Part shown: piece by piece, positions 4,386 through 52,388 of the stretch | Numbering within the stretch: position 1 is the first letter of the stretch | Layout: each line of letters starts with the position of its first letter | The notes under the pieces: generated by a model | What the model was told of the DNA's origin: nothing | The model's input: only the letters and a program-made list of their open reading frames with translations | The model's database searches: none | Position numbers and translations under genes: made by a program | NCBI RefSeq assembly: GCF_038050405.1 | Contig: NZ_CP150900.1 | Coordinates: forward strand, 2,976,001-3,040,000 | Direction of reading: 5' to 3' | Origin: Paraburkholderia sp. IMGN_8 | Lineage (GTDB): Bacteria > Pseudomonadota > Gammaproteobacteria > Burkholderiales > Burkholderiaceae | DNA length: 64,000 bases

Positions 4386-5265
4386 GGTTTGCCTACGCGG
4401 CGCTTGTTGTCTGTTTGCCTGCGGCGTTGGCCTTTCCTTGATTTCTTAGTGGTCTATTAGCGTCGCCCCTGTGCGGGGCAGGCACTTACTTTCTTTGCCG
4501 CCGCAAAGAAAGTAAGCAAAGAAAGCGGCTTCACACCGCTAATTCTTAAGCGGGTCCCCTGGCTTGGAGGAGGTAGTGGAGCATCTGGAATCGGTGCTCT
4601 CGCACATTCAACCCTGGTGACAAGGCAGTCATACTTCCGGCGGCGCTGCGCGCGCCGTGGCGGTACTTCCCAACACCGATGGGGCGTGTGCGCCTTCGGC
4701 ATCATCCTTCCCGCCTCGCACTGCGTGCTCGCCGGAACGGTCTGCATGGGAAACCCGTGGCTTCGTTTGTGCGCATTGGGAGCCATTGGCTGCGCCTCGG
4801 CGAGGTGCTGAATGGTGGAAGTGCGGGCCGCTTTGCCGAACGAAATGCAGCCGCGAGTTACGCGAGTTGAGCAAAGGCAATCCCTTACGCTTGAACAACC
4901 GCAGGAACGCCGCTGGCGCAGCGAAGACAAGCCGTTACTCCTGATAACCGCCGGCACGAAAGCGCCTGACGGTTTTGTGAAGTACCGCTACGGCGCGCGC
5001 AGCGCCGCCGGAAGGATGACTGCCTTGTCACTCACGCGGAATGTGCGAGAGCGCCGATTCCAGATGCTCCACTGCCTCCTCCAAGCCAGGGGACCCGCTT
5101 AAGAGTTAGCGGTGTGAAGCCGCTTTCTTTGCTTACTTTCTTTGCGGCGGCAAAGAAAGTAAGTGCCTGCCCCGCACAGGGGCGACGCTAATAGACCACT
5201 AACAAATCAAGGAAAGGCCACCGCTGTAAGCACAACCACCATGCCGCCGCTAAAGGCAAAAAAAC
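4386..5265. repeat. Palindromic dispersed element, copy A
   Basis: About 880 bp of non-coding DNA with two inverted arms (about 4386-4669 and 4978-5265) around a centre. Reading in from each edge, the arm holds a GGTTTGCC edge, GCGTTGGCCTTTCCTTG, a CCCCTGTGCGGGG hairpin, a 14-bp stem (CTTACTTTCTTTGC/GCAAAGAAAGTAAG), an AGCGG/CCGCT hairpin, AAGCGGGTCCCCTGGCTT and GGAGGAGGTAGTGGAGCATC. The centre contains a directional module (about 4700-4830, GCCTCGCACTGCGTGCTCGC) shared with copies B, D, E and F. The right edge runs directly into the stop codon of the patatin gene: the G of TAG is the first base of the edge. Open frames inside are by-products of the palindrome. Confidence 0.9.
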
Positions 5266-6219
5266 CTAATCAATCCCGAGCCGAGCCCGAATAGCCGGCA
5301 ACATATATTCCACCGCCGCACGGCCCTCTTCAATCGCCGGCGCGGCCCGATGAAAATCAAAAATCCCCATCCCCCCCAACCGCGGTTGAATCAAAATATC
5401 CGCCGGTTCGCCGGCAAGACGACTCCGCGTAATCCGCACTTGCATGATATCGATGCTCTGCGCGATCGAGCTAAGCATCGAAGGCACGCGCGTGCTCGGC
5501 GCAGGCGGCACCCGAACATCGTCGACACCGCGTGCCTCAGCCGGTGCAAGCCACCGTGGCCAAGGCTTGCCATTACGCCGTAATGCGACAGGCGGCGGCG
5601 CTGTCGGATCAATCGCGGGCGTATCGACCACCGCGCCGCCAAAATCGCGGCCGTTCAGAATATCGTTGTTCAGATCGACAGCGATCACGCAGTCCGCCCG
5701 CATGCCGCGCGCCACCGAGACCGGCACCGGATTGCTCAAGCCGCCGTCCACCAGCCACACGCCGTTGTGCCAAACCGGCGTGAAAATCCCGGGAATCGCA
5801 ATCGACGCGCGCACGGCATCCACCACGCTGCCGTCCTGCAACCAGCTTTCGCGGCCCGTATCGAGTTCAGTAGCAACCGCCGCGAACGGCATGTTCAACT
5901 GCGCAATCGAGCGGCCGTCGAATTTGTCCGCGAATAACTGGATCACTTTACGCCCGCCTAGCAAGCCGCCCGACAGACGCAGATCGAGCAGACGCACCAC
6001 CGTTTGCCACGTGAGCCGCGAAACCCATTCTTCAAGCCAGTCGAGATCGCCGTTCGCATACACCGCGCCGACCAGCGCCCCGATCGATGTGCCGCACACC
6101 ACATCCGGCTTGATGCCCGCGTCTTGCAACGCGCGAATCGCGCCGATATGCGCCCAGCCGCGCGCGGCGCCCCCACCCAACACCAGCCCGATACGGCTGT
6201 ATCGACGTCGATGTATCAT
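5266..6219 (-). CDS. Patatin-like phospholipase (RssA/NTE family)
   Basis: 317 residues. The patatin dyad is complete: glycine-rich oxyanion loop GGGAARGWAHIG near residue 15, nucleophile serine in GTSIG near 45, and aspartate in DGG (DGGLSNPVPV). It is predicted to hydrolyse acyl chains of phospholipids or lysophospholipids, probably in the cytoplasm or at the inner membrane, since no signal peptide is seen. An open frame continues upstream to 6834 but overlaps the next gene in another frame, so the ATG at 6217-6219 is preferred; it matches where homologues begin. The TAG stop abuts repeat element A. Physiological substrate unknown. Confidence 0.88.
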   Translation of the reverse strand: MIHRRRYSRIGLVLGGGAARGWAHIGAIRALQDAGIKPDVVCGTSIGALVGAVYANGDLDWLEEWVSRLTWQTVVRLLDLRLSGGLLGGRKVIQLFADKFDGRSIAQLNMPFAAVATELDTGRESWLQDGSVVDAVRASIAIPGIFTPVWHNGVWLVDGGLSNPVPVSVARGMRADCVIAVDLNNDILNGRDFGGAVVDTPAIDPTAPPPVALRRNGKPWPRWLAPAEARGVDDVRVPPAPSTRVPSMLSSIAQSIDIMQVRITRSRLAGEPADILIQPRLGGMGIFDFHRAAPAIEEGRAAVEYMLPAIRARLGID

Positions 6220-6239
6220 TTTTCCCTGCCTTTTCTTGC

Positions 6240-6830
6240 CTATCGCCCGCGCACCACGTCCGAGCGCGATGTGGTGTACACCTTGTGAAACTCGTCGAAG
6301 TGGACGTTGAAAATGCCCTCTTCCGTCACACCGCCCTCGCGCCACTTCCAGCTCCACACGGTTTCCGGCTTCAACGGAAACACGGCGACTTCGCCCGGCT
6401 TGCCGAGCAGGCGGCGCACTTCGTCCTCGGTCATGCCGATGCGAATCTTCGCGAAGTTGGCGGCGGTGAGCACCTGTGTGATGGCTTGCAGTTTGCCGTC
6501 GCTGTCGATGTCGACCATGTAGGTGTTCAGCCCTTGCGGACCGCGCGGATATTCGAGGCGCTTCGAGCCGTCGGTAAACGTCCGTTCGGTTTCGGGCTTG
6601 CCCATCTGGTCGCGGACTTGCGCTTCGCTCGTGACGCCGGGCGTCATGTTCTTGAGCAGTAATGCGTCCGGTTTGACGGCGTTGAAAAATTCCTTGAGTT
6701 TTTGCACGGCGCGGTCGCTCTGTTGGTCGTCGCAGCCGGCCAGCGCAACGCACGCGCTCAGCATGGCGACGGTAAGCAGTTTGAGGCTCACAGCAAGTTT
6801 CCTGTACGAATGCGGACGCGTAACGCGCAC
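6240..6830 (-). CDS. BamE/SmpA-like outer-membrane lipoprotein
   Basis: 196 residues with a lipoprotein signal peptide ending in a lipobox (VALAGC, Cys about 33) and two SmpA/OmlA-like half-domains: MTPGVTSEAQVRDQMGKPE and IRIGMTEDEVRRLLGKPGE. Family members such as BamE are outer-membrane lipoproteins assisting beta-barrel assembly, but this one is longer, with an apparent internal duplication of the BamE-type repeat, and is not in the usual bamE context. It lies 20 bp upstream of the patatin gene on the same strand, so the two are probably co-transcribed. True BamE function is unproven. Confidence 0.75.
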   Translation of the reverse strand: MRVTRPHSYRKLAVSLKLLTVAMLSACVALAGCDDQQSDRAVQKLKEFFNAVKPDALLLKNMTPGVTSEAQVRDQMGKPETERTFTDGSKRLEYPRGPQGLNTYMVDIDSDGKLQAITQVLTAANFAKIRIGMTEDEVRRLLGKPGEVAVFPLKPETVWSWKWREGGVTEEGIFNVHFDEFHKVYTTSRSDVVRGR

Positions 6831-6994
6831 GCATCCCGTTGTGTAGTGTGTACTACAGGATAACCGCGTGCAGGCAAAACCGCGAGCGCCGCCCGCAAGG
6901 AGGCTGTCAGTCTCCTTGCGGCGCGGTTTGCTGCGAGTGGGCTAGGCAGAGGAAAACGCGAGGGGAAAAGCCGCAGGAAATACGGCCCAGAAGC

Positions 6995-7023
6995 AAAAAG
7001 GCGACGCTGTGCAAAGCGTCGCC
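6995..7023 (-). terminator. Intrinsic terminator
   Basis: On the minus strand a perfect 9-bp stem GGCGACGCT/AGCGTCGCC with a 6-base loop is followed by TTTTT (6995-6999). It lies about 300 bases beyond the stop codon at 7330, so it ends either the sulfur operon transcript or an independent RNA made from 7024-7329. Confidence 0.75.
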
Positions 7024-7270
7024 AGGCCGGTCGGTACGGTCACCGAACGGTGGGGGCGGCAGAAAAGCCGCCCGAAGCGAAGCACCGCGGACGACGCGCA
7101 GCGGCCTGGTTCCCGGCGAAGCGGTGAGAGACCTTTGATCTCCGACCTTACGCCATCGCCGGAATGGCAGACCGCTGCTTGTTTGGCCGCCCTGGTCCCT
7201 CGATAAGCCTTCTAGGTGCAGCCAATCTAAACGCATTGACGAACTTAGACGAGAGCGCGTTTACACCGAA
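6995..7270 (-). ncRNA. Candidate small RNA or long structured 3' UTR
   Basis: The minus-strand sequence between the sulfur-operon stop codon and the terminator at 6995-7023 has consecutive GC-rich hairpins (for example CGGGCGGC/GCCGCCC around 7052-7072) and no good reading frame. It could be an sRNA processed from, or transcribed beside, the operon. It does not match 6S RNA, tmRNA or RNase P RNA as I know them. The 5' end is a guess. Confidence 0.25.
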
Positions 7271-7329
7271 TTGGCAGATGATTTCTGGCTGAGCGGCACA
7301 GGCCCCACGCCGCGCCGAGTCGTGCATCC

Positions 7330-8520
7330 TCACACGGTCGAAAACGCGGCGAAACCCGCCCGCCCCGCGCCCAGCAGCACGAAATCGTTCTGCGGCGTAT
7401 GAATCCGCGCGCACAGCACATCGCGATAGTGGCGCTCGAGCGGATTGTCGCGGCTCAAGCCGGGATTGCCACTCGCCTCGACGGCCAACTGCACTGCTTC
7501 GATCGATTGATTCGTCACCATGTATTTGACGAGCGGCGCTTCGTCGAGCGTCACGTGTTGGCCGCGCGCGCCCGCGTCGAGCAGCACGCGATTGTTGAAC
7601 AGCAGCGCGTCGATCCGGCCGAGCGTCTGCGCGAACGCCGGCAGGCTCGCGAGCGGCGCGCCGAGATTGCCGGGTGTGCGGTTCGCGGCCCACTGCGCGA
7701 ACCAGTCGCGCGCGGCCCGCGCAACGCCGTCGTAGACCGCCGGCAACAGCACGCTCATCCACGCGAAGCCGAGCGGATCGAGCCCGGCGCCGGGCTCCCC
7801 CGGCGGATGCACATCGACCGCATGCGCGGCTGGCACAAACACGTTGTCGAATACCAGTTCATGACTGCCGGTGGCGCGCATACCGAGGTGATTCCACTCG
7901 CTGCCGACCCGCACGCCCGGCGTATCGCGATGCACCAGCCACACGCCGACGCGCGGCGGCGTCTCGTCGCTGCGTGCCCACACCGCGAGCCATGTGAGAC
8001 CGGGACTGCCGGTCGAATACAGCTTGCTGCCATCGATACGCCAGCCGTCACCACTGCGCTTCGCGATGGTCGACGGCAAGCCGCCGCGCGCCGGCGTGCC
8101 GAGTTCGGGTTCGACGCGCAACGCGTTGATCAGCGCGCCGTCGCGCACCGCTTCACGCGCGACGCGTTCGCGCAGTTCGACGGGCCAATGCGGATTGCCC
8201 TGCAAGCGCTGATGAAACAGGTACTGCATCACCAGCACCAGCGCCGTGGACGGCTCGCCGCGCGCCACCGCACGTATGACCTTCAACGCCTGCGGCAAGC
8301 TGGCGCCCGCGCCGCCGAGCGACACGGGCACCGTCAACGAGAGCAGATCGAACTCGTGCAAACGCGCCAGATTGGCGTGCGGAAATTCGGCAGTGCGGTC
8401 GTAGTGCGCTGCGCTCGCGGCAAACCCGGTGGTGAGTTGCGCGAGCAGCGCGTCGAACGCATCGCTATCGAGCGGCGGATGACGGCGCGTCACCGCGCTT
8501 TCGGCAATCGTGGCATTCAT
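7330..8520 (-). CDS. Acyl-CoA dehydrogenase-fold flavoprotein, SfnC/DszC-like
   Basis: 396 residues of the acyl-CoA dehydrogenase fold, with the substrate/flavin segment WRIDGSKLYSTGSPGLTWLAVWA in the middle and a helical C-terminal domain. In sulfur-scavenging operons, proteins of this type (SfnC, DszC) act as FMNH2-dependent monooxygenases on organosulfur compounds rather than as true fatty-acyl-CoA dehydrogenases. It is the last gene of a minus-strand operon with an SsuD-like monooxygenase, sulfonate binding protein and rhodanese, which supports that role. Start chosen at ATG 8518-8520 (MNATIAESAV); the frame extends to 8670, but that part has no family similarity. Exact substrate unknown. 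Confidence 0.75.
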   Translation of the reverse strand: MNATIAESAVTRRHPPLDSDAFDALLAQLTTGFAASAAHYDRTAEFPHANLARLHEFDLLSLTVPVSLGGAGASLPQALKVIRAVARGEPSTALVLVMQYLFHQRLQGNPHWPVELRERVAREAVRDGALINALRVEPELGTPARGGLPSTIAKRSGDGWRIDGSKLYSTGSPGLTWLAVWARSDETPPRVGVWLVHRDTPGVRVGSEWNHLGMRATGSHELVFDNVFVPAAHAVDVHPPGEPGAGLDPLGFAWMSVLLPAVYDGVARAARDWFAQWAANRTPGNLGAPLASLPAFAQTLGRIDALLFNNRVLLDAGARGQHVTLDEAPLVKYMVTNQSIEAVQLAVEASGNPGLSRDNPLERHYRDVLCARIHTPQNDFVLLGAGRAGFAAFSTV

Positions 8521-8542
8521 GCGAGAACTCCGGCACGCCGTG

Positions 8543-8656
8543 TTACGGCAGAGGGAAACTGCGATCGAAGCTCGCGCGCACGTCGAACGATTCGGCGCGG
8601 CGATCGAACGGCAATTCAAGGACGCCCGCGCGTAGCGCGCGGCCTGAGCCGCACAC
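8543..8656 (-). CDS. Possible 37-codon ORF in the rhodanese-flavoprotein gap
   Basis: The 162-bp gap between two operon genes contains a GTG-started frame (8654-8656 to TAA 8543-8545) whose peptide, with segments such as GVLELPFDRRAESF and DVRASFDRSFPLP, looks more protein-like than the competing frame. It could be a small real gene, or the remnant of a larger one lost between rhodanese and flavoprotein genes. No family is recognised and the ribosome-binding sequence is weak. Confidence 0.25.
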   Translation of the reverse strand: MCGSGRALRAGVLELPFDRRAESFDVRASFDRSFPLP

Positions 8657-8682
8657 GACACTCGCTTCAATAAGCCGTCACG

Positions 8683-11985: not shown

Positions 11986-11997
11986 GTTGGGAGGCGC

Positions 11998-14094: not shown

Positions 14095-14965
14095 GTTTTT
14101 TTTGCCTGCGCGGCGCTTATGTCTGTGTGCCTGCGGCGTTTGCCTTTCCTTGATTTCTTAGTGGTTTATTAGCGTCGCCCCTGTGCGGGGCAGGCACTTA
14201 CTTTCTTTGCCGCCGCAAAGAAAGTAAGCAAAGAAAGCGGCTTCACACCGCTAATTTTTAAGCGGGTCCCCTGGCTTGGAGGAGGTAGTGGAGCATCTGG
14301 AATCGGTGTTCTCGCACACTCCGCGCTTGTGACAAGGCAGTCATACTTCCGGCGGCGCTGCGCGCGCCGTCGCGGTACTTCCCAACACCGATCGCAGATA
14401 GGCGCCTCCGGCATCATTCTTCCCGCCTCGCACTGCGTGCTCGCGGGAACGGTCTGCCAGGGAAACCAGGGGCTTCGTTTGTGCGTGATTGGGGGCCATC
14501 GGCTTTGCCTCGGCGAGGTGCTGAATGGTGGAAGTGCGGGCCGCTTTGCCGAACGGAATGCGGCTGCAAGTTACGGCAGCGGAGCAAAGGGATGCAGTCG
14601 CGAGTGACGCTAGCACCGCAAAGGCAAGCCGTTACACACGAACCACAGCAGGCGCGAAAAGCGCCCGACGGTTTTGTGAAGTACCGCTACGGCGCGCGCA
14701 GCGCCGCCGGAAGTATGACTGCCTTGTCACCAGCGCGGAGTGTGCGAGGGCACAGATTCCAGATGCTCCACTACCTCCTCCAAGCCAGGGGACCCGCTTA
14801 AGAATTAGCGGGGTGAAGCCGCTTTCTTTGCTTACTTTCTTTGCGGCGGCAAAGAAAGTAAGTGCCTGCCCCGCACAGGGGCGACGCTAATAGACCACTA
14901 AGAAATCAAGGAAAGGCCAACGCCGCAGGCACACAACCAATAGCGCCGCGCAGGCAAAAAAAACC
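14095..14965. repeat. Palindromic dispersed element, copy B
   Basis: About 870 bp. Edges are the clearest of the family: GTTTTTTTTGCCTGCGCGGC at the left and its inverse GCGCAGGCAAAAAAAACC at the right. Arms are about 14095-14381 and 14679-14965; both carry the CTTACTTTCTTTGC/GCAAAGAAAGTAAG hairpin. The centre includes the conserved directional module at about 14410-14545 in the same orientation as copy A. This is the only copy lying between divergent genes, so it separates two promoters rather than two gene ends. Confidence 0.9.
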
Positions 14966-21717: not shown

Positions 21718-21850
21718 AAGCGGCCTGGAAACGGCCTGAATCAAGCGAGAGAGCGCGGCATCTGGCGATCTCGTCATAGCGTGGTTCAGGACGCGCCGTT
21801 GTGGTGCGCGTCGGTGGCGCGGTATGCACTGCATGCTGCCGGGGCACCTG

Positions 21851-22240
21851 GCTTTTTGCCTAAGGCGTTGGCCTTTCCTTGTTTTCTTATTGGTTTATTA
21901 GTGTTGCCCCTGTGCGGGGCGGCACCTACTTTCTTTGCCGCCGCAAAGAAAGTAGGCAAAGAAAGCGCCCCGCTTCACACCGCTAATTCTTAAGCGGGTC
22001 CCCTGGCTTGGAGGGTGTAGTGGAGCATCTGGAATCAGTGTCCTCGCGCACTCCGCGCTTGTGACAAGGCAGTCATACTTCCGGCGGCGCTATGCGCGCC
22101 GTGGCGGTACTTCACGAAACCGTCCTCTGGGTTTGAGGCCCGCTCGTGGCTGGAACCCAGTGGTTCGCGCTGCGCGCGCCGGAGCGGTACTTCAGAAAAC
22201 CGCCCGCCAGTTTGGATACCTTGGCAACTTGGGAGCGGCT
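21851..22240. repeat. Palindromic dispersed element, copy C (single arm)
   Basis: Only one arm of the family is present, starting GCTTTTTGCC and running through the hairpins to the GGCGGTACTTC block, followed by a partly repeated GCGCGCCGGAGCGGTACTTC segment. The main hairpin here is CCTACTTTCTTTGC/GCAAAGAAAGTAGG, an intermediate between the two other variants. The conserved centre and the opposite arm are missing. It lies between convergent pdxY and the DUF4148 gene. The right boundary is imprecise. Confidence 0.8.
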
Positions 22241-23795: not shown

Positions 23796-24947
23796 ATGAG
23801 TCTTCGCAACCCGCTGAAACCGCTTGCACTGATCGTTGGCGCCGTCTTCGCGATGGGGCCGCTGGCCAGTTTCGCCGACGACCTGCCGGTCAAGATCGGC
23901 TTTGCTGCGCCGATGACGGGAGCCAACGCCGGCTACGGCAAGGATCTGGAAAACGGCGTACGGCTTGCGATCGAAGAAGCCAACGCCCAGAAGATCAAGA
24001 TCGGCGACAAGGTCGCACAATTCCAGCTCGTCTCCGAGGACGACCAGGCCGACCCGCGCATTGGCGTTCAGGCGGCGCAGAAGCTGGTTGACCAGAGCGT
24101 ATCGGCGATAGTGGGCCACTTCAATTCGGGCACGACGATTCCTGCGTCGCAGATATACGAACAGGCCGGCATTCCGGTGATCGACCCGGCCGCGACCAAC
24201 CCGATCATTACCGGGCGAGGTTTTGCGAACACCTTCATGGTGATTTCCACCGATGCGCAGAACGCCGGCAATGCGGGGATTTATGCCGTCGAGGTGACCA
24301 AAGCCAAACGGATTGCGATCATCGACGACCGGACCGCCTTCGGCCAAGGCGAGGCCGACGAGTTCGAGAAAGCGGTGAAGGCGCACGGCGGCAACATCGT
24401 GACGCGGGAGTACACCGATAATCATGCTGTTGATTTCAGCACCCAGCTCACCAAGATCAAGTCGACTAATGCGGATCTGATTTTCTTCGGCGGGCTGGAT
24501 ACGCAGGCTGCCGGGTTTGCCAAGAAGATGAAGCAATTGGGGATGACCGCTCAGCTGGTGGGCGGCGGCGGCGTGGTGGATCCCGAGTTCATCAAACTGG
24601 CCGGCGATTCGTCTGAAGGCGTGATGGCATGGGAGTATGGCAGGCCGTTGGCTCAGTTGCCTGGCGGCAAGGATTTTTCTGCCAAGTTCAAGAAGAGATT
24701 CGGGGTGGATATCCTGTCGTACGCGCCATTTGGGTATGACGGGGCATGGGCGGCTATTCGCGCCATGCAGCAGGCTAAGTCCAGTTCGCCGGCTGTTTAT
24801 CGGCCTGTGCTGAAGGGGATTGATTTTGACGGTGTCACTGGGAAGATTTCTTTTGATAATACCGGGGCGTTGAAGAGTGGGGCTTCTACGCTATATCAGG
24901 TTAAGGGGGCGGTTTGGGTGCCGGTTGTTACTAAGAGTGGGAGTTAA
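23796..24947 (+). CDS. Branched-chain amino-acid-type ABC substrate-binding protein (LivK/LivJ family)
   Basis: 383 residues: Sec signal peptide (core LALIVGAVFAMGPLASFA, cleavage before DDLPVKIGF), then a type-I periplasmic binding fold with IGFAAPMTGANAGYGKDLENG and PVIDPAATNPIITGRGFANTF typical of Leu/Ile/Val binding proteins. Start ATG 23796 with GGAAGGAG in front; the ATG at 23781 overlaps this ribosome-binding site and is unlikely. No livHMGF genes accompany it, so it is an orphan binding protein here. Its TAA is followed directly by the edge of element D. Confidence 0.9.
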   Translation: MSLRNPLKPLALIVGAVFAMGPLASFADDLPVKIGFAAPMTGANAGYGKDLENGVRLAIEEANAQKIKIGDKVAQFQLVSEDDQADPRIGVQAAQKLVDQSVSAIVGHFNSGTTIPASQIYEQAGIPVIDPAATNPIITGRGFANTFMVISTDAQNAGNAGIYAVEVTKAKRIAIIDDRTAFGQGEADEFEKAVKAHGGNIVTREYTDNHAVDFSTQLTKIKSTNADLIFFGGLDTQAAGFAKKMKQLGMTAQLVGGGGVVDPEFIKLAGDSSEGVMAWEYGRPLAQLPGGKDFSAKFKKRFGVDILSYAPFGYDGAWAAIRAMQQAKSSSPAVYRPVLKGIDFDGVTGKISFDNTGALKSGASTLYQVKGAVWVPVVTKSGS

Positions 24948-25166
24948 GGTTTTTTTGCCTGCGCGGCGCTTATGTCTGTGTGCCTGCGGCGTTGGCCTTT
25001 CCTTGATTTCCTATCGGTTTTTTAGCGTTCCCCCTGTGCTGTTTGCCTACTCGGCGCTTTAGGTTGTACGCCTACGACGTTGGCCTTTCCTTGCTTTCTT
25101 ATTGGTTTATTAACGTGCCCCCTGTGCGGGGGGCACCTACTTTTCTTTGCCGGCCGCAAAGAAAAG
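24948..25166. repeat. Palindromic dispersed element, copy D, left part
   Basis: Starts with GGTTTTTTTGCCTGCGCGGC immediately after the TAA of the binding-protein gene. The outer module (TTGGCCTTTCCTTG) occurs twice in tandem (about 25003 and 25083). The sequence breaks inside the 3' half of the main hairpin at GCAAAGAAAAG, where the IS110 element begins. Confidence 0.88.
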
Positions 25167-25350
25167 CAACCGTATTGGAAGTCAAGCGGCGAGCTGTCCC
25201 TCAAGGTGCGAATTGTCGGTCGTGGAGAGCATTTTGTGGGCGCGCGTAATCCTCGCGACCCGCACGATTGAGCAACCTGCAGAAGGTGGGCATGGGCGGC
25301 GTGAATGCTTGCGTTAAAAGCGCAACAGCCGGACGCAACCCTGCCGGAAG

Positions 25351-26476
<1,126 letters not shown>

Positions 26477-27280
26477 AGTAGGCAAAAGAAAGCGGCTCAA
26501 ACCGCTGACACTTAAGCGGGTCCCCTGGCTTGGAGGAGGTAGTGGAGCATCTGGAATCTGTGTCTTCGCGCACTCCGCGCTGGTGACAAGGCCGTCATAC
26601 CTCCGGCGGCGCTGCGCGCGCCGCGGCGGTACTTCACAAAACCATCGGCCATTTTCGTACCTGTGGATATCCAGGTGTAACGGCTTGTCTTCGCTGCGCT
26701 AGCGGCGTGCCTGCGGTTGTTCAAGCGTAAGGGCTTGGCTACGCTGACGTAACTCGCGGCTGGTTCGGCGCGATGACTCGCCCTCGCGTTCCCAATCTCT
26801 TGCCGAGGCGCTGGCGTCTCATTCGGAATAATGGTTCGCACCCCACACTTCGGCGCCTCGCCGAGGCGCAGCCGATGGCTCCCACCGCGCACAAACGAAC
26901 CCACTGGTTTCCCGTGCAGACCATTCCGGCGAGCACGCAGTGCGAGGCGGGAAGAATGACGCAGGAAGCGCTTACGCCCCATCGGTGTTGAGAAGTACCG
27001 CTGCGGCGCGCGCAGCGTCGCCGGAAGTATGACTGCCTTGTCACCAGCGCCGAATGTGCGAGAACACTGATTCCAGATGCTCCACTACCTCCTCCAAGCC
27101 AGGAGACCCGCTTAAGCGTTAGCGGTGTGAAGCCGCTTTCTTTGCTTACTTTCTTTGCGGCGGCAAAGAAAGTAAGTGCCCGCCCCGCACAGGGGCGACG
27201 CTAATAAACCACTAAGAAATCAAGGAAAGGCCAACGCCGCAGGCAAACACCCCAACCAAGCGCCACGCGCAAAAAAAACC
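26477..27280. repeat. Palindromic dispersed element, copy D, right part
   Basis: Resumes at AGTAGGCAAAAGAAAGCGG, completes the first arm to about 26632, contains the conserved centre in the opposite orientation to copies A, B, E and F (about 26845-26975, read on the minus strand), and the second arm from about 26992 to 27280. The right arm has the CTTACTTTCTTTGC hairpin variant whereas the left arm had the longer one. The edge GCGCAAAAAAAACC touches the stop codon of the DUF3857 gene. Confidence 0.9.
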
Positions 27281-29167
27281 TTATTTCAAAACCTTAACCA
27301 CAACCTCAGAATCCAAATCCCTTTGAACCCGAACCAGATCCGACTTCACGTCGAGAAACTCAGTAGGAGAACACATCTGATGCCCAAACCCGGCCCGAAG
27401 GTGCCGCCTAACCTGCAATACCCGCTCCGCAGGATCAAACACATAGTGAGAAGAAAAATCAAAAACCCGATCTTTCACCACCGCATCAGGCGGCACATCG
27501 ATCACTTGAACAAACCTCGGCAATGCCAACTCCAAAGTCTCATCAAACTCCCCTCCAATACAAGTCCATGGCTGCGTCCTTAAAGGCTCCGCAAGCCACG
27601 CTTGCACCTGACTCCCCATGCCGCCAGACAAGCTCGTCAAAGCCGGCACAGCCGTCGTCCCATCCTCCCAGACAAAATGCTCCACACGCCCTTGCATCGA
27701 AGTAGAAAAAGGCCCATCCATAGCGGCCACATCGCCCGTGCGCAATTGCGCAGTCCCATGCAGCCCCGTCTGCAATAACCTGCTCGCGGCAATCAACTGG
27801 GTCCGCTGCCGCGTTGCCCTACGAAACATATTGCGCTCGAGCTCCGCCGTCGACCCTACATCTTCCACGCGATATGCGTAATTAGCCGCCCCGCTCTCAT
27901 CGACATCGATCTGCAATCGCGCAGTCCGCTCGCGCAACTGTGTGGCCGGCGTGCGCGACAGCATTCCCTCGTCGACCAGCAGCGCGGGCCGGTCCATCAC
28001 GCTCGCCGGCAAATAACCGAAACTAACGCCGCCCGCCGTCGTGTCGGCATACAAGAACAACTCAGGAATCCAGACGATTGCATGATTGATCGCGCTCCCG
28101 CCATATCCCGGCACGTCCGGCAAACTGTAGTACGGCCCGAGATTGAGCAGCACGGCCTCGCTGCGAATGCCCACCGCGGCCAGCAACGCGCCGTACAACG
28201 CGACGTGATCCTTGCAGTCGCCGTAACGATTGCGCAGAATGTCGATCGCCTTGTGCGGGATCGCCGCCGTCTCGCCGAGAAACAACGCTACGTAGCGAAT
28301 GTTCAACCGCATCCAGTCGTACAGCACCTGCGCCTTCGCGCGCGGATCCGTAGCCTGCGCAGTCAGACTCTGTGCGAGGCGCACGATCGCCGGGTCGTTC
28401 ATCGTCGCGTCGACGGCCGGTCCGCGATAACGCGCGGCAAAACTCGCGAAGTCGGGCACCGTCGATATCATCAGGCGGTCTCCCCAGTTCGCATAGCCGA
28501 CCGCGCCCGCTTCGAGCGGCGCATACGGGCCGTGCCGGTAATCGAATTCGTAGCGGGTACGGCCGTTCTCCGTGACCGGCGGCAGCGCGAGGTAGCCGCG
28601 CGCGTCGGTATAAAACGGCACGTCGGCGGGTAAGTCGAAGATCAGACGCTGCATCTCGACCGGCTCGCGCGTCGGTTCGACCAGGTACGCGAAGGTGCCG
28701 GCCTGCAAAGGCTTCGTGCGCGTCTTGCGAAACGCCAGATGCACGCGTGAACCGGGCTCGACGCCCGGAAAAATCACCGTGCGCAATACGCCGTCCTGGA
28801 AATTCGGTGCGCCGGCCGAGCGCGGTTCCTGCACGTCGCGGATCGCCTCCGGGCCGACCTGGTGCGCCACGCCGTTCGGGTCGATCGTTTCCGCAACCAG
28901 CAATTGCACCTGCTCGATGTCCTTGTTGAACCACACGTAGCGTTGCGCGATATCGTCGACGCCACTCGTCGTGTTGGCACGCAAAATCGTGTCGTCGTGT
29001 TCTTCCACCGAGCCGTCTTTCTGGATCACGAAGAGATGGACGTCGCGCTCCATCGTCGACGGTGCGAGATCGTCGCTGGCGGCGGGCTCACCTGCATGCG
29101 CGATAGCGACGCACCCGCCCAGCATCAACGCGGCGGCTAGCCTCGTGAACGCGAAGCACCTCGTCAT
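27281..29167 (-). CDS. DUF3857/transglutaminase-like exported protein
   Basis: 628 residues from the ATG at 29165-29167: signal peptide (MTRCFAFTRLAAALMLGGC, cleaved near AHA-GEP, or lipidated at the Cys), an N-terminal DUF3857 domain (about 60-220), then a transglutaminase-like domain with Cys in RYGDCKDHVALYGALL, His in SAINHAIVWIPE and Asp in LYADTTAGG. The function of such proteins is unknown; a periplasmic protein-modifying or peptide-handling role is plausible. A second in-frame ATG at 29225-29227 overlaps the stop of the upstream AraC gene (ATGA); the two starts arose by a 60-bp tandem duplication. The downstream start is preferred because it gives a clean signal peptide. Confidence 0.8.
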   Translation of the reverse strand: MTRCFAFTRLAAALMLGGCVAIAHAGEPAASDDLAPSTMERDVHLFVIQKDGSVEEHDDTILRANTTSGVDDIAQRYVWFNKDIEQVQLLVAETIDPNGVAHQVGPEAIRDVQEPRSAGAPNFQDGVLRTVIFPGVEPGSRVHLAFRKTRTKPLQAGTFAYLVEPTREPVEMQRLIFDLPADVPFYTDARGYLALPPVTENGRTRYEFDYRHGPYAPLEAGAVGYANWGDRLMISTVPDFASFAARYRGPAVDATMNDPAIVRLAQSLTAQATDPRAKAQVLYDWMRLNIRYVALFLGETAAIPHKAIDILRNRYGDCKDHVALYGALLAAVGIRSEAVLLNLGPYYSLPDVPGYGGSAINHAIVWIPELFLYADTTAGGVSFGYLPASVMDRPALLVDEGMLSRTPATQLRERTARLQIDVDESGAANYAYRVEDVGSTAELERNMFRRATRQRTQLIAASRLLQTGLHGTAQLRTGDVAAMDGPFSTSMQGRVEHFVWEDGTTAVPALTSLSGGMGSQVQAWLAEPLRTQPWTCIGGEFDETLELALPRFVQVIDVPPDAVVKDRVFDFSSHYVFDPAERVLQVRRHLRAGFGHQMCSPTEFLDVKSDLVRVQRDLDSEVVVKVLK

Positions 29168-29250
29168 GTGCGGCGCGCCCTGCCCCGACGCGGCGGCTAG
29201 CTTTACGAACGCGAAGCACCGCGTCATGTGCGGCGCGCCCTGCCCCGCGC
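29131..29250. repeat. 60-bp tandem duplication covering a start codon
   Basis: Two adjacent units with period 60 (29131-29190 and 29191-29250) differ at only a few positions. Each contains CGTCATGTGCGGCGCGCCC, that is the upstream leader plus the ATG and first codons of the DUF3857 gene. The second unit also holds the stop codon of the AraC gene. Confidence 0.92.
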
Positions 29251-30054
29251 GCGCCATGCTCGCGGACTCGAAGCAAACTCCGCGCGAAACGTGTGATTGA
29301 AATTCGATAGATCGTTAAAGCCGCAATCCAGCGCAACGTCGACGATCTTCGCGCCGTCGTCATGAAGACGCAGCGCTGCCGCTCGCAAACGCGCCCGCAG
29401 AATGTATTGATGCGGCGTCACGCCGGTCACCCGCCGGAAGGTCCGCAGGAAGTAGAACTCACTCAAACCCGCCGCCGCCGCAAGGCTCGCGAGCGTATGC
29501 GGCGCGGCGGGCGCGGCGTCGATCAGACGCACGGTCTGCGCGACGCGCGACCATGCCGCGGCGCTGGCCGGCTGCCCTGCGCGCGTCAATGCCCCGGCCG
29601 CATCCAGGGTCGCGACGGCCAGTTCGACGGCAAGCTCATCCCACACCGGTTCGCCCACATCGGAAGCCCCCGCGCAGGCTCGCGCGATCAACGGCGACAG
29701 CGAACGAAGCGCCGGCATCCGCGCGCGCCTGAAGTTCAGATTGCCGCTTGCGATGCCTGCGTCGGCGGCGAGCTGCTCGAAGTAAGCCGGCGCATAGCGA
29801 AACGCGATACAGCGATCGCCGGCCCCGTGCCGATGGCCGCACTCGAAGCAGTCGCCGTTGTTGCCTAGCAGCAGCGCCCCCGGGGTCAGCAGTTCGCGCC
29901 CTGCCGCAGCCCGGTAGCCGAACGAGCCGGCGACCACCATCGCGATGCACACGCCGCCGTGCCGCTCCTCGAACGGCTGGTCGCGTGGTCCGAAGGTGCA
30001 AAGAATGTCCGCGACGTCCCAGCCCGCGCCCTGCGCCAACGGGCGCGCGGCCAT
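29224..30054 (-). CDS. AraC-family transcriptional regulator
   Basis: 276 residues from ATG 30052-30054. Cupin-like N-terminal sensor (about 10-110, with LLGNNGDCFECGHRHGAGDRC) and C-terminal double helix-turn-helix (LASLAAAAGLSEFYFLRTFRR; IVDVALDCGFNDLSNFNHTFRAEF). The frame is open to 30279, and a TTG or other start between 30054 and about 30125 is possible, since residues such as VTLQQALAQRAREG look coding. It is divergent from the gene at 30234 and overlaps the DUF3857 start by the duplicated segment. Target genes are probably its neighbours. Confidence 0.8.
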   Translation of the reverse strand: MAARPLAQGAGWDVADILCTFGPRDQPFEERHGGVCIAMVVAGSFGYRAAAGRELLTPGALLLGNNGDCFECGHRHGAGDRCIAFRYAPAYFEQLAADAGIASGNLNFRRARMPALRSLSPLIARACAGASDVGEPVWDELAVELAVATLDAAGALTRAGQPASAAAWSRVAQTVRLIDAAPAAPHTLASLAAAAGLSEFYFLRTFRRVTGVTPHQYILRARLRAAALRLHDDGAKIVDVALDCGFNDLSNFNHTFRAEFASSPRAWRARGRARRT

Positions 30055-30797: not shown

Positions 30798-31726
30798 GGT
30801 TTTTTTGCCTTTGGCGGCGGCATTGTTCTGGGTGCCTATGGCGTTGGCCTTTCCTTGATTTGTTTGCCTTGCGAGGCGGCATTGGCTGTTCGCCTGCGGC
30901 GTTGGCCTTTCCTTGTTTTCTTAGTGGTCTATTAGCGTCGCCCCTGTGCGGGGCAGGCACTTACTTTCTTTGCCGCCGCAAAGAAAGTAAGCAAAGAAAG
31001 CGGCTTCACCCCGCTAATTCTTAAGCGGGTCCCCTGGCTTGGAGGAGGTAGTGGAGCATCTGGAATCAGTGTTCTCGCACACTCCGCGCTGGTGACAAGG
31101 CAGTCATACTTCCGGCGGCGCTGCGCGCGCCGTGGCGGTACTTCCCAACACCGATGGGGCGTGTGCGCCTTCGGCATCATCCTTCCCGCCTCGCACTGCG
31201 TGCTCGCCGGAACGGCCTGCGAGGGAAACCAGTGGCTTCATTTGCAAGTAGCGGGGGCATCGGCTTCGCCTCGGCGAGGCACCCGAGTGTGCGGGTGTGG
31301 GCCACCACTCCGAGTGAGACGCTGTTGCCTTCGCGAGGCGTAGGGGACGCGAGGGCGAGCCACCGCGCCGAACCAGGCGCGGGCGCCCAAACCGCCGGGC
31401 GGTTTGATGAAGTACCGCCACGGCGCGCGCAGCGCCGCCGGAAGTATGACTGCCTTGTCACCAGCGCGGAATGTGCGAGAACACCGATTCCAGATGCTCC
31501 ACTGCCTCCTCCAAGCCAGGGGACCCGCTTAAGAATTAGCGGGGTGAAGCCGCTTTCTTTTGCCTACTTTTCTTTGCGGCCGGCAAAGAAAAGTAGGTGC
31601 CCCCCCGCACAGGGGGAACGCTAATAAACCAATATCAAATCAAGGAAAGGCCACCGCCGTAGGCACACAGAAGAATGCCGCCGCCAAAGGCAAAACCCCA
31701 ACCACTCGCTCCGCGAAACCAAACCC
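30798..31726. repeat. Palindromic dispersed element, copy E
   Basis: About 930 bp between convergent genes. Left arm about 30798-31145, with its outer module duplicated in tandem (TTGGCCTTTCCTTG at about 30844 and 30902); right arm about 31409-31726. The left arm carries the short hairpin CTTACTTTCTTTGC/GCAAAGAAAGTAAG, the right arm the longer CCTACTTTTCTTTGC/GCAAAGAAAAGTAGG; each is internally complementary although the two arms differ. Centre module at about 31170-31290, same orientation as A. The right edge GGGTTTGG follows the neighbouring TAA directly. Confidence 0.9.
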
Positions 31727-47421: not shown

Positions 47422-48804
47422 TCAGATCGCCCAGCCGCCGAGATAAAAGCCGACCAGCACGATAGCGATCACAACGGTGCCGACGTTCAGCTTGCGGTAC
47501 TCGCCGCTCACCACGCGGCCGATCACCAGCGTCGCGAAGCCGAGCATGATGCCCGTGACGATGTTGGCGGTCAGCACGATGAACACCGCGCACATCAGGC
47601 CCGACATCGCATCGACCATGTCGTCCATATGCAGCTTGCTGACGTTGGAGAGCATCAGCAGACCGACGTACATCAGCGCCGGCGCCGTCGCATACGAAGG
47701 CACCAGGCCCGCCAGCGGCGAGAAGAACATCACCACGAGGAACAGCAGGCCGACCACCGCCGCGGCCATCCCCGTCTTCGCGCCGGCTGCGACGCCGACC
47801 GTCGATTCGATGTACGCTGCTGCCGGTGCGCCGCCGAGCAGACCCGAGAAAATCGAGCTCAGCGAATCGGCCGTCAACGCACGGCCACCGTTGATGATGC
47901 GGCCGTTTTCGTCGAGCTGGCCGGCTTGTCCTGCGACGGCGCGGATCGTGCCGGTTGCGTCGAACACGGCGGTCATCACCAGTGCCAGCACGCTAGGCAA
48001 GACTGCCATCGACAGTGCGCCCTTGATGTCCATCGCGCCGATCAGTGAAGCATGGCCCGGCGCGCTCAGCGAAGGCACGGCGAACACACCATGGAACGCC
48101 ACCGCCGGATCGATCAGCAATGCGATCGCCGAGATCGCGATAATCACGATCAGGATCGAACCCGGCACGCGACGGCGCACCAGACCGAAGATCGCGGCCA
48201 GACCCGCCACCGACATGATCGCCGGCAACGCCGTGATATTGCCGAGCGACACCGGCAAGCCAGCACCTGGATTCTTGACGACGAGACCGACGTCGTTCGC
48301 CGCGATCAGCAGCAGGAACAGGCCGATACCGATGCCCGTGCCGTGCGCGATGCCGGTCGGCAGATTGCGCAGGATCCACGAACGCACGCCCGTCACCGAG
48401 ATTCCGGTGAAGACGACGCCCATCAGAAACACCGCGCCGAGCGCGACGTTCGGATGCAGGCCTTTGCCGAGCACGAGACCGAACGCGGTGAACGCGGTCA
48501 GCGAGATCGCACAGCCGATCGCGATCGGCAGACGCGCCCACACGCCCATCAGCAGCGAGCCGAACGCGGTGGTCAGGCACACGGCGACGAACACCGCGCT
48601 GGTATCGAAGCCCGCTTTGCCGAACATGCCTGGCACGACGAACACGGAATAGACCATCGCGAGGAAGGTCGTAATACCGGCGACGATTTCCTGACGCTGC
48701 GAGCTGCCGCGCGAGGAGATTTCGAAGTAGCGGTCGAGAAAGCCCTTTCCGTCGAATGATTCGGCGCCGACTTCGGAAATCGGTTGGGCGTGGGGTTCCA
48801 TCAT
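47422..48804 (-). CDS. NCS2-family purine permease, AzgA/GhxP type
   Basis: 460 residues, about 12-14 transmembrane segments. [19 protein letters not shown] and [12 protein letters not shown], together with the [20 protein letters not shown] loop, are typical of the AzgA group that imports hypoxanthine, guanine or adenine with protons. Double ATG at 48799-48804 behind AAAGGAGG. Upstream in-frame sequence to 48903 is not part of the protein. No purine-riboswitch-like fold noticed in the leader. Confidence 0.9.
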
Positions 48805-49380
48805 GATGAGTGCCTCCTTTATCAGCGTGCTGAAACGGCCATCGATCTGGCCGCCATCAGGTTCGTCTCGTTGCGTTTGTCTATCTAATGAGGGGTGTGG
48901 CAAGGTTTGAACGTCGGCTTGCGATGCATTTAAGTTCTCGTCCTCCGGCGGCCAACTTCCTTAAAGCGCCGACCGTCGATTTCCCGGGATGACGTACAAC
49001 CTGCATGCTCCGTTCTTCTTTTGCTGTCTCGAAATGTAGGGCAACACAAATATGTCTCCCATCGCATGAATGGCATGCTCGACATGTCGCGATGCTTATA
49101 TCGTTTAAGGGACGGCAAATCATGCGCATGGTCCGCGCGTTTACACCTACGGTTTGTCATCGAGTTGCGAAGCGTTTTTTTGCGGTTTTGAGGGGTTAAA
49201 AGGGGAGCAAAGGCGCGAAGCGCGGCACGAACCGCGTCTGCGGCGGACCTGTCGGATGGCCTGCAAAACCGGTCGGCCCGCTGTCGCGGGTTACACTCTG
49301 CCCCGTATCTGTCTTAACTGCGTGTCTAAACTGCGGCGGTCCACAGCGCCCGTCCGCACTCGCCGATGGAGTCCTTCTTG
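48805..49380. other. Divergent intergenic region
   Basis: 576 bp between the purine permease and the PRC-barrel lipoprotein genes. AT-richer at 49000-49200. No gene is evident; presumably holds both promoters. GGAG at 49368-49371 is the ribosome-binding site of the lipoprotein gene. Confidence 0.5.
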
Positions 49381-50349
49381 ATGAGTGGCGGTTTTTCGCG
49401 TCCTGCCTGGCGTCTTCTGATTCTTGCTGCGTTCGCAGTGCTCGCGTTGTCCGGTTGCAGCCTGCTGTGGGGTCCGCAACAGGCGCCGATCGTCGAAGCC
49501 ACGGTCATGCCCGTCGAACCCGCGAGCGCGCCGGTGGCCGCCTCCGAGCCGGAACCGGCCGAGACCGAGGCGGCCGGGCCCGAGCAGCCGAGAAAGCCGA
49601 AGAAGCCGGTCGTCAAGCCCCACAAGGTCGAACCTCCACCGCCGGTCGCCGCGCCCGCGCCGCCGCCTCCACCGCCCCCGCCGCTGATCGTGTTGCGCAC
49701 GATCGAGCGCAACGAAGCGCACGGGCTGCTCGATAGCCCGGTGCAGAAACCCGACGGCAAAGTGGTCGGCCGCGCGGTCGATATGCTTGCGGACGCGGCC
49801 GGCAAGCCACGCGAGATGGTGGTCAACCTGCAGGGTTTCCTCGGCGTCGGCGACCGCAAGGTGAATTTCCCGTGGAGCGCTTTCCGCTTCACGCCGACCG
49901 CGAAGATCGCGCCGATCACGCTCACCGCGCCTGCCGTGCCGGCGCCCGCGGCCAGGTCCAACGTCGTGCAATTGCCGTTGCTCGACGCCACCGTCGAGCG
50001 TTCGAACGGCGCGAAGGTCGGCCGTGTGATCGACGTGCTGATCGACGCCAACGCGCAGCCGCAAGCGGTCGTACTCGACGTCAACGGGATGGTCAGCACG
50101 GAGCGGCGCACGATTGCCGCGAACTGGTCGGCGCTGCGCTTCGTCACCAAAGAAAAGGAGCTGCATCCGCTGATCGATCTGAGCGATGCGCAGATCAACG
50201 CGACGCCGCCTTACGCCAGCGACAAACCGATCCGCGCGGTGTCGCCTGCGCCGCCGCCCGCGCCTGCGCCTGCCCCAGTGCCTGCTGCCGCGGCCACCGC
50301 GGCACCGGCCACTGCCACAGCGGTTTCCAGCGCACGGGTGGCCCGATGA
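49381..50349 (+). CDS. Lipoprotein with two PRC-barrel domains
   Basis: 322 residues: lipoprotein signal (LLILAAFAVLALSGC, Cys about 26), a Pro/Ala/Glu-rich linker (about 35-100, including a run of prolines) that could span periplasm, then two PRC-barrel-like domains (DGKVVGRAVDMLADAAGKPR; NGAKVGRVIDVLIDANAQPQ) and a second Pro/Ala-rich tail. PRC-barrels are protein-interaction or RNA-binding modules; function here unknown. Stop overlaps the MFS start by ATGA, so the two are co-expressed. Confidence 0.75.
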   Translation: MSGGFSRPAWRLLILAAFAVLALSGCSLLWGPQQAPIVEATVMPVEPASAPVAASEPEPAETEAAGPEQPRKPKKPVVKPHKVEPPPPVAAPAPPPPPPPPLIVLRTIERNEAHGLLDSPVQKPDGKVVGRAVDMLADAAGKPREMVVNLQGFLGVGDRKVNFPWSAFRFTPTAKIAPITLTAPAVPAPAARSNVVQLPLLDATVERSNGAKVGRVIDVLIDANAQPQAVVLDVNGMVSTERRTIAANWSALRFVTKEKELHPLIDLSDAQINATPPYASDKPIRAVSPAPPPAPAPAPVPAAAATAAPATATAVSSARVAR

Positions 50350-51602
50350 CAGGCCGCACTCTGGTAACCGCGCGCAGCCTGCTGGCGCTCGATTGGCTCA
50401 ATTTTTTCGTGGCCAATGTGCAGACGGGCTTTGGGCCGTTCATCGCGTCGTACCTTGCGTCGCACAAGTGGACACAGGGCGAGATCGGTATGGCGCTATC
50501 GGTCGGCACCATCAGTGCGATGATCAGCCAGGTGCCGGGCGGCGCCGCGGTCGACGCGTTACGCAACAAGAAAGGCGCTGCTGCCTGGGCGATTTTCGCG
50601 ATTATCTTCAGCGCAGTGCTGCTGGCCGTGAGCCCGACGGTGCTGCCGGTGATCGCCGCCGAGGTGTTTCACGGCTTTGCCAGCTGCATGCTGACGCCGG
50701 CTCTGGCGGCGATCTCGTTCGCGCTGGTCGGCCGCGCGAATCTTGGCGACCGGCTCGGGCGCAATGCGCGCTGGGCGTCGATTGGCAGCGCGGTCGCGGC
50801 CGGGATGATGGGCGTATTCGGTGAGTACTATTCGCCGCGCGCGGTGTTCTGGCTGACCGCCGCGCTTGCCGTGCCTGCCCTGTTCGCGTTGACGATGATC
50901 CAGCGCACTGACACTGTCGAGTTGCCGAGGGCCGCGCCGACGCCGGCACAGATCGAACGGCGCGAGAGCTTGCGCGAGTTGCTGCGCGACAAGCGGATGC
51001 TGTTGTTCGCGGCGTGCATTGTGTTGTTCCACTTGTCGAATGCGGCGATGTTGAATCTTGCCGCTGGCGAAGTGACGGCCGGCATGGGGGACAACGTGCA
51101 GTTGGTGATTGCGGCTTGCATTATCGTGCCGCAAGCGATTGTGGCGATGATGTCGCCATGGGTTGGGCGTTCTGCCGAACGATGGGGACGCAGGCCGATT
51201 TTGTTGCTGGGGTTTTCTGCGCTGCCGATACGGGCGTTGTTGTTTGCCGGGATCAGCAGCCCGTATTTGCTCGTGCCGGTGCAGATGCTCGATGGGTTGA
51301 GCGCCGCCGTGTTCGGTGTGATGCTGCCGTTGATCGCCGCCGATGTGGCCGGCGGGAAGGGGCGGTATAACCTTTGTATTGGGTTGTTTGGGTTGGCTGC
51401 CGGGATTGGGGCCACGTTGAGCACTACGGCTGCTGGGTTTATTGCTGATCATTTTGGCAATGCTGTTAGCTTTTTTGCCTTGGCGGCGGCTGGGGCGATG
51501 GCCGTGCTGCTGGTGTGGGCAGCAATGCCGGAGACGCGCGATGCGGCAGCCGATGAGGATCAGGTTGCGGTGCCTGATGGGGGGAAGCCGGTAAAGGGTT
51601 AA
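50346..51602 (+). CDS. MFS transporter
   Basis: 418 residues, twelve hydrophobic segments; N-terminus LLALDWLNFFVANVQTGFGP, followed by PGGAAVDALRNKKG and VGRSAERWGRRPILLLG, the A-motif-like loops of the major facilitator superfamily. Single-gene exporters of this type often export small toxic compounds; substrate unknown. Translationally coupled to the PRC-barrel lipoprotein. Its TAA is directly followed by element F. Confidence 0.88.
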   Translation: MTGRTLVTARSLLALDWLNFFVANVQTGFGPFIASYLASHKWTQGEIGMALSVGTISAMISQVPGGAAVDALRNKKGAAAWAIFAIIFSAVLLAVSPTVLPVIAAEVFHGFASCMLTPALAAISFALVGRANLGDRLGRNARWASIGSAVAAGMMGVFGEYYSPRAVFWLTAALAVPALFALTMIQRTDTVELPRAAPTPAQIERRESLRELLRDKRMLLFAACIVLFHLSNAAMLNLAAGEVTAGMGDNVQLVIAACIIVPQAIVAMMSPWVGRSAERWGRRPILLLGFSALPIRALLFAGISSPYLLVPVQMLDGLSAAVFGVMLPLIAADVAGGKGRYNLCIGLFGLAAGIGATLSTTAAGFIADHFGNAVSFFALAAAGAMAVLLVWAAMPETRDAAADEDQVAVPDGGKPVKG

Positions 51603-51603
51603 C

Positions 51604-52388
51604 GGTTTTTTTGCCTGCGCGGCGCTTATGTCTGTTTGCCTGCGGCGGTGCCTTTCCTTGTTTTGTTATTGGTTTATTAGCGTCGCCCCTGTGCGGGGGG
51701 GCACCTACTTTTCTTTGCCGCCGCAAAGAAAAGTAGGCAAAAGAAAGCGGCTCAAACCGCCAACTCTTAAGCGGGTCCCCTGGCTCGGAGGAGGCAGTGG
51801 AGCATCTGGAATCTGTGTTCTCGCACATTCCGCCCTGGTGACAAGGCAGTCATTCTTCCCGCCTCGCACTGCGTGCTCGCCGGAACGGTCCGCAAGGGAA
51901 ACCCGCGGCTTCGTTTACGCGCGGTCGGGGCCATCGGCGTCGCCTCGGCGACGCACCGAAGTTTGGGAGCGCGAGTCACTATGCCAGGCGAAACGCCGGC
52001 GCTGAAACTGGCGGGCAGTTTTATGAAGTGACGCCGAGCGCCGAAACCGGCAGGCGGTTTGATGTACCGCCAAGCCCCAAAACCGCTAGACGGTTTGATG
52101 AAGTACCGCCACGGCGCGCGCAGCGCCGCCGGAAGTATGACTGCCTTGTCACCAGCGCGGAGTGCGCGAGAACACCGATTCCAGATGCTCCACTACCTCC
52201 TCCAAGCCAGGGGACCCGCTTAAGAATTAGCGGTGTGAAGCCGCTTTCTTTGCTTACTTTCTTTGCGGCGGCAAAGAAAGTAAGTGCCTGCCCCGCACAG
52301 GGGCGACGCTAATAAACCAATAACAAATCAAGGAAAGGCCAACGCCGCAGGCAAACACCCCAACCACGCGCTACGCGCAAAAAAAAAC
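51604..52388. repeat. Palindromic dispersed element, copy F
   Basis: About 785 bp, between two convergent MFS genes. The left edge GGTTTTTTTGCCTGCGCGGC begins two bases after TAA; the right edge merges into the TAG of the next gene. The left arm has the long hairpin variant CCTACTTTTCTTTGCC, the right arm (about 52098-52388) the short one. The left arm is shortened: the TCATACTTCCGG block is joined straight to the centre at a shared TCATNCTT, which fits a deletion between short direct repeats. Centre module about 51855-51980, same orientation as A. Confidence 0.9.

Follow-up and report, generated by a model that had tools for sequence, protein, structure and literature searches.

Miniature inverted-repeat transposable elements (MITEs; ERIC, RUP, and similar) are dispersed, non-coding sequences with inverted repeats, and the bacterial interspersed mosaic elements (BIMEs) of E. 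coli bind gyrase or IHF. Long palindromes, with arms of about 300 bp, are generally regarded as unstable in bacterial genomes. The repetitive extragenic palindromes (REPs) measure 20-40 bp in the text available on them, carry a GTAG or CGTC tag at one end (PMC3733652, available text), and are targeted by insertion sequences (ISs) of the IS3, IS110, IS4, IS256, and IS5 families (Tobes and Pareja; PMC1525189, available text). In P. fluorescens, several repeats (R0, R2, R26, R200, and others) consist of a core flanked by inverted repeats, with a Tail-repeat-Tail bias and strain-specific copy numbers (PMC2718517, available text). Here we describe a window of 64,000 nucleotides from Paraburkholderia sp. 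IMGN_8 (the whole stretch analysed; NZ_CP150900.1, positions 2,976,001 to 3,040,000) that carries six copies, A to F, of a palindrome of about 0.9 kb, of which the host genome holds roughly a hundred. We read it, at about even odds (a probability near 0.5), as a giant REP/BIME-like family of 3′-end palindromes that is homogenised by recombination.

Like REPs and BIMEs, the family is palindromic, extragenic, and of high copy number, lies downstream of genes, between convergent or co-directional ones, and is a target of ISs; it differs in its arms of ~300 nt, its copies of ~880 nt, its shared directional centre, and in that no REP-associated tyrosine transposase (RAYT) was found linked to the repeat. 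With the P. fluorescens repeats it shares inverted repeats around a core, the tail-to-tail bias, and strain-dependent copy number, whereas those repeats are 50-352 bp long with inverted repeats of 11-43 bp (Table 3 of PMC2718517), and a rule of placement flush with stop codons goes unmentioned in the available text of that paper. The copies are non-coding, dispersed, and flanked by inverted repeats as MITEs are, but their arms are much larger, no clear target duplication is seen, and their sites are shared with relatives.

Across the host genome (9,114,050 bases in two contigs), a 23-base core of the arm, with up to 3 mismatches allowed, matched 208 times (105 forward, 103 reverse), while its reversed pattern matched neither strand anywhere; with two cores per copy, this corresponds to roughly one copy per 90 kb. 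An arm profile (nhmmer) built from nine arms of the window gave 190 hits in the window and 60 further host stretches, which were selected for holding matches and are not a random sample (858,659 bases in total), and chaining of these hits resulted in 89 elements. A full copy is non-coding and consists of two inverted arms flanking a directional centre. The stretch between the arms, 114-387 nt long, could be excised from 72 of the 89 elements, and all 72 match one centre (best hits on the plus strand in 39 and on the minus strand in 33), although the centre profile was built from these same 72 stretches, seeded with copy A, and a small number of the hits score weakly. The initial annotation had proposed six palindromic copies with inverted arms around a shared directional centre and without a transposase or credible gene, and all of this is borne out: the six copies are present as arm-profile hits, the centre is common, and neither a called gene (51 uninterrupted copies) nor a linked transposase was found. 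Two of its details change. Copy C, placed at 21851-22240, is indeed a single arm, but its detectable part ends at 22124, and a spacing of about one copy per 10 kb describes the local cluster (six in 48 kb) and not the genome. The genome-wide count and the mapping to gene ends that it had suggested give the 208 cores above and the following placement.

Genes were called with a purpose-made, hexamer-based finder, and a single element of the 89 overlaps a called gene, marginally. Both neighbours are known for 88 elements: 48 occupy a convergent gap, 8 a divergent one, and the rest (22 + 10) separate co-directional genes. Convergent pairs make up 128 of all 664 adjacent gene pairs in these stretches, element-bearing pairs included. 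At 47 of the 112 gene ends that border an element, no more than 10 nt separate the stop codon from the arm start, and further groups lie at ~20-39 and 50-69 nt, where the sequence between the stop and the farther tip often resembles, by eye, another copy of the tip. Junctions typically run from the stop through GG and a T run to GCC, and a T6 run no more than 15 nt past the stop is present at 57 of 112 element-side ends vs 3 of 214 ends without an element. Tips that face a gene start, among the 138 listed, sit at least 27 nt from it, and solitary arms point their tip toward a gene 3′ end in 12 of 15 cases (hand count; one 53-nt fragment dropped). Lax terminator sites number 8 around copy B (2.0 expected) and 4 around copy F (1.7 expected).

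Sites A and F are shared with relatives. Arm-core matches (≤2 mismatches) were found in 39 of 117 genomes drawn from the genus, the host counted in, and, among 200 genomes of the order, in the host and in one genome with a single match; the strict core pattern overlooks diverged arms, so that these genome counts are lower bounds. Copy number is uneven within the genus, from 0 to 67 matches in other genomes vs 208 in the host. At site F, between convergent MFS genes, 19 of 29 relatives have an arm hit covering at least 200 profile positions, five have shorter pieces (some of them at contig edges), and five have none. The corresponding count for site A is 10 of 29 genomes, the others showing short arm-less gaps, pieces, or contig edges, and at site D no arms were seen in 28 relatives (a 29th genome, with a paralogue only, was dropped). 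At F, the centre is oriented as in the host in all 14 relatives in which a centre hit was obtained (5 of the 19 gave none); at A, this holds for 8 of 9 loci (7 of 8 genomes), G310 being flipped. Genome-wide in the host, the two orientations stand at 39:33. Because the sites recur in relatives, mostly with the host's centre orientation, the simplest reading of the sequences is that A and F are old, inherited, orthologous elements. No clear target-site duplication was seen by eye at the compared sites, a weak test, as the post-stop zone varies between 0 and 24 nt among relatives and the junctions are unclean.

The elements also differ in size at the same place. The host's sister, G228 (support 1.0 in a FastTree phylogeny from three gene segments), lacks arm-core matches throughout its genome (≤2 mismatches), and the 221 kb surrounding its syntenic region, where both flanks of seven host elements were matched, contain no arm hit. 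At three of the seven, it retains tips immediately behind the stop, in gaps of 28, 45, and 60 nt, no clear tip being seen at the other four; genome-wide, its tip matches number 15 forward and 2 reverse. At site F, where a 59-nt palindrome of this type occurs in G288, loss of the interior is the simplest reading for G228, since clades on both sides of it carry the element. At site D, growth from a short form may have taken place. Among eight genomes chosen by eye from the 28, the intergenic starts of G228, G249, G267, G218, and G276 outscore all 1,000 shuffles when aligned to the tip, with a weaker alignment in G309 (11/1,000) and no significance in G308 (284) and G240 (442). By eye, no short form was obvious in 79 convergent gaps of the host stretches that lack an arm. 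A 164-nt mini-element of the host with both arms truncated (L083:3211-3374) is possibly an intermediate size form.

The host arms at A and F have mean identities of 0.84-0.90 to 142 other host arms vs 0.75-0.78 to their orthologous arms, and in 53 of 54 comparisons the orthologous arm is less alike than the average paralogue. With paralogues within the host more alike than orthologues, the family shows concerted evolution. Left and right arms form one pool (left-left 0.872, right-right 0.876, left-right 0.874). At site F, the partner arms of G264 and G283 are 0.98 and 0.96 alike, and their likeness to the F arms of other species is at most 0.88 and 0.90. Several other species have a left arm that resembles the left arm of a different species more than its own partner arm.

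Insertion sequences enter the arms at recurrent points. Four unrelated families recur at fixed positions of the arm profile (L044, L048, L049, and window 25170-26475, the insertion in copy D): IS481 at 116-123 (4 copies), IS110 at 129-138 (3 copies in the stretches), IS4 at 180-188 (4 copies), and IS30 at 144-148 and 144-163 (2 copies); IS3 occurs once, at 102-105 (L037). Families were named by NCBIfam on nine proteins, eight of them IS frames, and 4 of the 14 counted copies took their family from a like copy comparable in length and score (L050, L056, and L057 via L044; L063 via L049), as did two more (L072 and the IS110 of L082). All six IS110 copies of the genome encode proteins that are 100% identical, and each sits at position 129/138 of an arm. 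IS110, IS3, and IS4 are thus common to these arms and to REPs, while IS481 and IS30 lie outside the five REP-targeting families named in the available text of PMC1525189.

The most conserved core of the arm is a local hairpin, H4. Of the 131 distinct segments found, 66 arms served for the pair counts, 24 of them host arms and 42 arms of relatives; 98.6% of cells pair, with changes on both sides in 38 cells and on one side only in none, and for the whole structure of three helices shuffles average 13.1 two-sided cells and none of 500 reaches 38. Of 273 other genomes sampled across the class, 20 hold a 22-base core (≤2 mismatches), the reversed control of which matches once, in one genome. At 11 non-host core loci, from 11 of those 20 genomes, a same-strand open reading frame (ORF; raw, at least 90 aa, no control) ends within 400 nt upstream in 8, and an opposing one lies within 1.5 kb downstream in 10. 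Inverted arms around or including the core were seen in at least 5 of the 11 (L323, L326, L328, L333, L334) and in Hydrocarboniphaga effusa, and none were seen at L324, L329, L330, and L332. A class-wide look at GC stems beside the core was mixed: some loci have a stem that outscores most shuffles, and others yielded no stem. In a scan of named genomes, the matches listed come mostly from Burkholderia, Paraburkholderia, and Caballeronia, and also from Hydrocarboniphaga, Lysobacter, and metagenome-assembled genomes of Pseudoxanthomonas and Moraxellaceae. Each palindrome carries two cores, which face opposite ways, and for at least 156 cores in at least 120 named loci the outer side faces a gene end in 99 and no gene in 6.

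The family was at first thought to have no recognised name, which nearly holds: the sole gathering-level Rfam match in the window, to RF02421 (Bp1_684), is made by one arm of copy B and passes by 0.9 bit. Bp1_684 is a Burkholderia small RNA (sRNA) candidate, 114 nt long in B. pseudomallei, and because a figure legend counts it as one of the "verified sRNAs" (PMC3521395, available text), a short relative of the arm may be transcribed. It is described there as a single sRNA candidate, with "repeat" and "palindrom-" absent from the main text. In the open literature (subscription papers and supplements being outside its scope, so that absence from print is not claimed), this was the only paper found to name a related sequence; looking for the core sequences in print gave a single paper, on cattle, and a term search of the available text of a stem-loop survey gave no mention of Burkholderia (PMC2267715). 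Among 13 loci outside the host's group, Rfam gave TwoAYGGAY (RF01731) above the cut-off in one locus. There, two opposed matches, both above the cut-off, lie beside a class member of the core (L333:1558-1687, minus strand, and 1805-1883, plus strand), and the TwoAYGGAY motif may lie in such palindromes.

According to the reading we prefer, each arm would act as a 3′-end structure for the gene whose stop adjoins it. Transcribed as the 3′ part of the neighbouring gene's mRNA, the arm would fold, protect the end of that mRNA, and curb read-through where two genes converge; being a palindrome, one element could serve both strands. Recombination (gene conversion) among dispersed copies, and between the two arms, would keep the copies alike, and a tip-only site could be rebuilt from another full copy, which would allow spread without a transposase of its own. 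SbcCD may have a role in how palindromes are tolerated: SbcD was found above the NCBIfam cut-off in 10 of 114 genus genomes, none of which has an arm-core match, and not above it in the other 104, the host among them (some weaker match is present in 99 of 114), in counts that cover SbcD alone and are uncorrected for the kinship of the genomes. SbcCD removes such structures in E. coli (PMC3733652, available text), and the rarity of SbcD in the genus may make long palindromes tolerable; for SbcCD loss as a cause of element gain or loss, the evidence is suggestive only.

A number of observations weigh against this reading, beginning with the two limits of the SbcD counts just given and with G228, which lost its arms yet has no SbcD above the cut-off. 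Strict intrinsic terminators are not enriched within 320 nt of element-side ends (7/112, vs 27/215 at other ends), so that a simple terminator role lacks support from strict sites, though it may still apply. Strong pairing of the arms within an element does not emerge in the host genome, where partner arms have an identity of 0.891 vs 0.880 for shuffled pairs (standard deviation 0.003, maximum 0.892 in 2,000 shuffles), a small excess. An arm of G218 at site A (L153:125-326) has a mean identity of 0.90 to the host pool over 202 positions while its adjacent gene is 89% alike, which to judge from the sequences points to horizontal spread or a recent burst; sequence of a subfamily thus also appears to cross species. 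The covariation of H4 comes from two pairs and may reflect few haplotypes: pairs with two-sided changes number 2 vs 2.0 in shuffles and further pair types 5 vs 7.0, without excess, and sliding the partners by +1 raises the covariation score (0.089 vs 0.071). In the named genomes, 50 cores of the at least 156 listed face a gene start and 1 lies inside a called gene. Finally, the orientation counts in relatives are non-independent, and insertions may have recurred at a favoured junction.

Possible, though doubtful, is a selfish non-autonomous mobile element (a very large MITE, fold-back, or REPIN-like element) moved in trans by a putative recombinase, for which the post-stop zone would be the least harmful landing site. 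It would suit the very uneven copy number and the host-type arm in G218, and tail-to-tail bias has been explained as a "least worst" location for the P. fluorescens repeats (PMC2718517, available text). The initial annotation had suggested looking for a matching recombinase: the host genome has one homologue of REP-type tyrosine transposases (L091:1459-2166; Y1_Tnp, PF01797, 28.5 bits vs a Pfam cut-off of 23), but the gene falls below the NCBIfam cut-off (50.3 vs 80) and no arm-profile hit lies in its 3.3-kb locus. A RAYT-driven REP is unsupported, as this sole Y1_Tnp gene has no arms nearby. Mobility is also countered by the lack of a clear target-site duplication at junctions that vary and make the test weak, by sites A and F being common to relatives in mostly the same orientation, and by a flush placement tighter than harmless insertion alone requires. 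Of the two labels first offered for the family, a very large REP/BIME is accordingly the better (extragenic, biased toward tail-to-tail gaps, high in copy, hit by IS110, IS4, and IS3, and without a linked transposase), and a fold-back mobile element is less well supported, given the shared sites and mostly constant centre orientation.

A wider proposal, on balance unlikely, is that ancient, class-wide post-stop palindromes would form a self-renewing population without a transposase, whose members contract to their hairpin tips and are restored in situ through gene conversion from other full copies, with whole genomes losing and refilling them, as a standard 3′-end module of tail-to-tail genes where SbcCD is lacking. 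Quite improbable is an architectural site on the DNA, whose palindrome and hairpins, like the BIMEs of E. coli, would be bound by a nucleoid or topology protein in convergent gaps, the places at which positive supercoils run together. Its strand-symmetric anatomy, the bias toward convergent genes, the spread of the hairpin core across the class, and the lack of a G-U intermediate at the two covarying H4 pairs would fit; the polarity that solitary arms keep relative to genes (12/15) and the 32 of 88 copies between co-directional genes do not. That each copy is a decayed protein gene or coding repeat, an alternative raised at the outset, is barely credible. Long open runs (a median longest run of 158 codons in the 51 uninterrupted copies) might suggest it, yet these would be expected in GC-rich sequence, and the same copies have a period-3 power of 0.40 of the mean and no called gene, 116 of 127 gap runs have lengths not divisible by 3, and three element ORFs have no Pfam match at E 0.001. 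On these grounds a coding origin is rejected.

The six copies of the window are listed in Table 1. The right tip of copy A adjoins the stop of a patatin-like gene (5266-6834, minus strand), copy B lies between divergent luciferase-like genes, copy D is flush to stops at both ends (24945-24947 and 27281-27283), and copy F is flush between the stops of the two MFS genes; in copy E, 31696-31726 falls outside the arm profile. Among the 25 longest inverted pairs, arms within a copy are complementary at 95% over 296 nt in B, 93% over 263 in A, 92% over 176 in E, and 86% over 168 in D; the pair of copy F lies outside these 25, and both its arms are arm-profile hits. As a single RNA strand, copy B has a predicted fold of -713.5 kcal/mol (z = -51.8, 20 shuffles). 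The 5′ end of a DUF3857/transglutaminase gene (27281-29257, minus strand) contains a 60-nt tandem duplication, 85% identical, at 29116-29235.

Table 1. Palindrome copies and associated features, in window coordinates.
Feature	Position	Strand	Parts or remarks	Basis
Copy A	4385-5265		Left arm 4385-4682 (+), centre 4683-4965, right arm 4966-5265 (-)	Arm profile
Copy B	14095-14965		Left arm 14096-14393 (+), centre 14394-14664, right arm 14665-14964 (-)	Arm profile
H4, left arm of B	14197-14228	+	Local hairpin, most conserved core	Sequence, pair counts
H4, right arm of B	14831-14862	-	Local hairpin	Sequence; pair counts include other arms
RF02421 (Bp1_684), marginal match	14852-14949	+	Outer part of right arm of B	Rfam, 44.9 bits (cut-off 44)
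Copy C	21840-22124	+	Single arm	Arm profile
Copy D	24948-27279		Extra tip 24948-25039, arm pieces 25042-25169 and 26476-26646 around IS	Arm profile
Copy D, rest			Inverted centre 26647-26978, right arm 26979-27279 (-)	Arm profile, centre profile
IS110-family transposase in copy D	25351-26310	-	Inserted at arm position 129/138	Pfam, NCBIfam
Copy E	30798-31726		Extra tip ~30798-30859, left arm 30860-31157 (+), centre 31158-31396, right arm 31397-31695 (-)	
Copy F	51605-52388		Left arm 51605-51889 (+), centre 51890-52088, right arm 52089-52388 (-)	Arm profile

Overall, the host keeps roughly a hundred long palindromes, many of them against stop codons, although such structures are commonly taken to be unstable, and the family is apparently an outsize counterpart of the short palindromic repeats described in other bacteria. 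The target of its IS110 element has been identified, as all six copies sit in these arms. If the recombination model is true, a repeat family can persist and spread without a mobility enzyme of its own, and this one would be a natural system for palindrome tolerance, concerted evolution, and 3′-end function.

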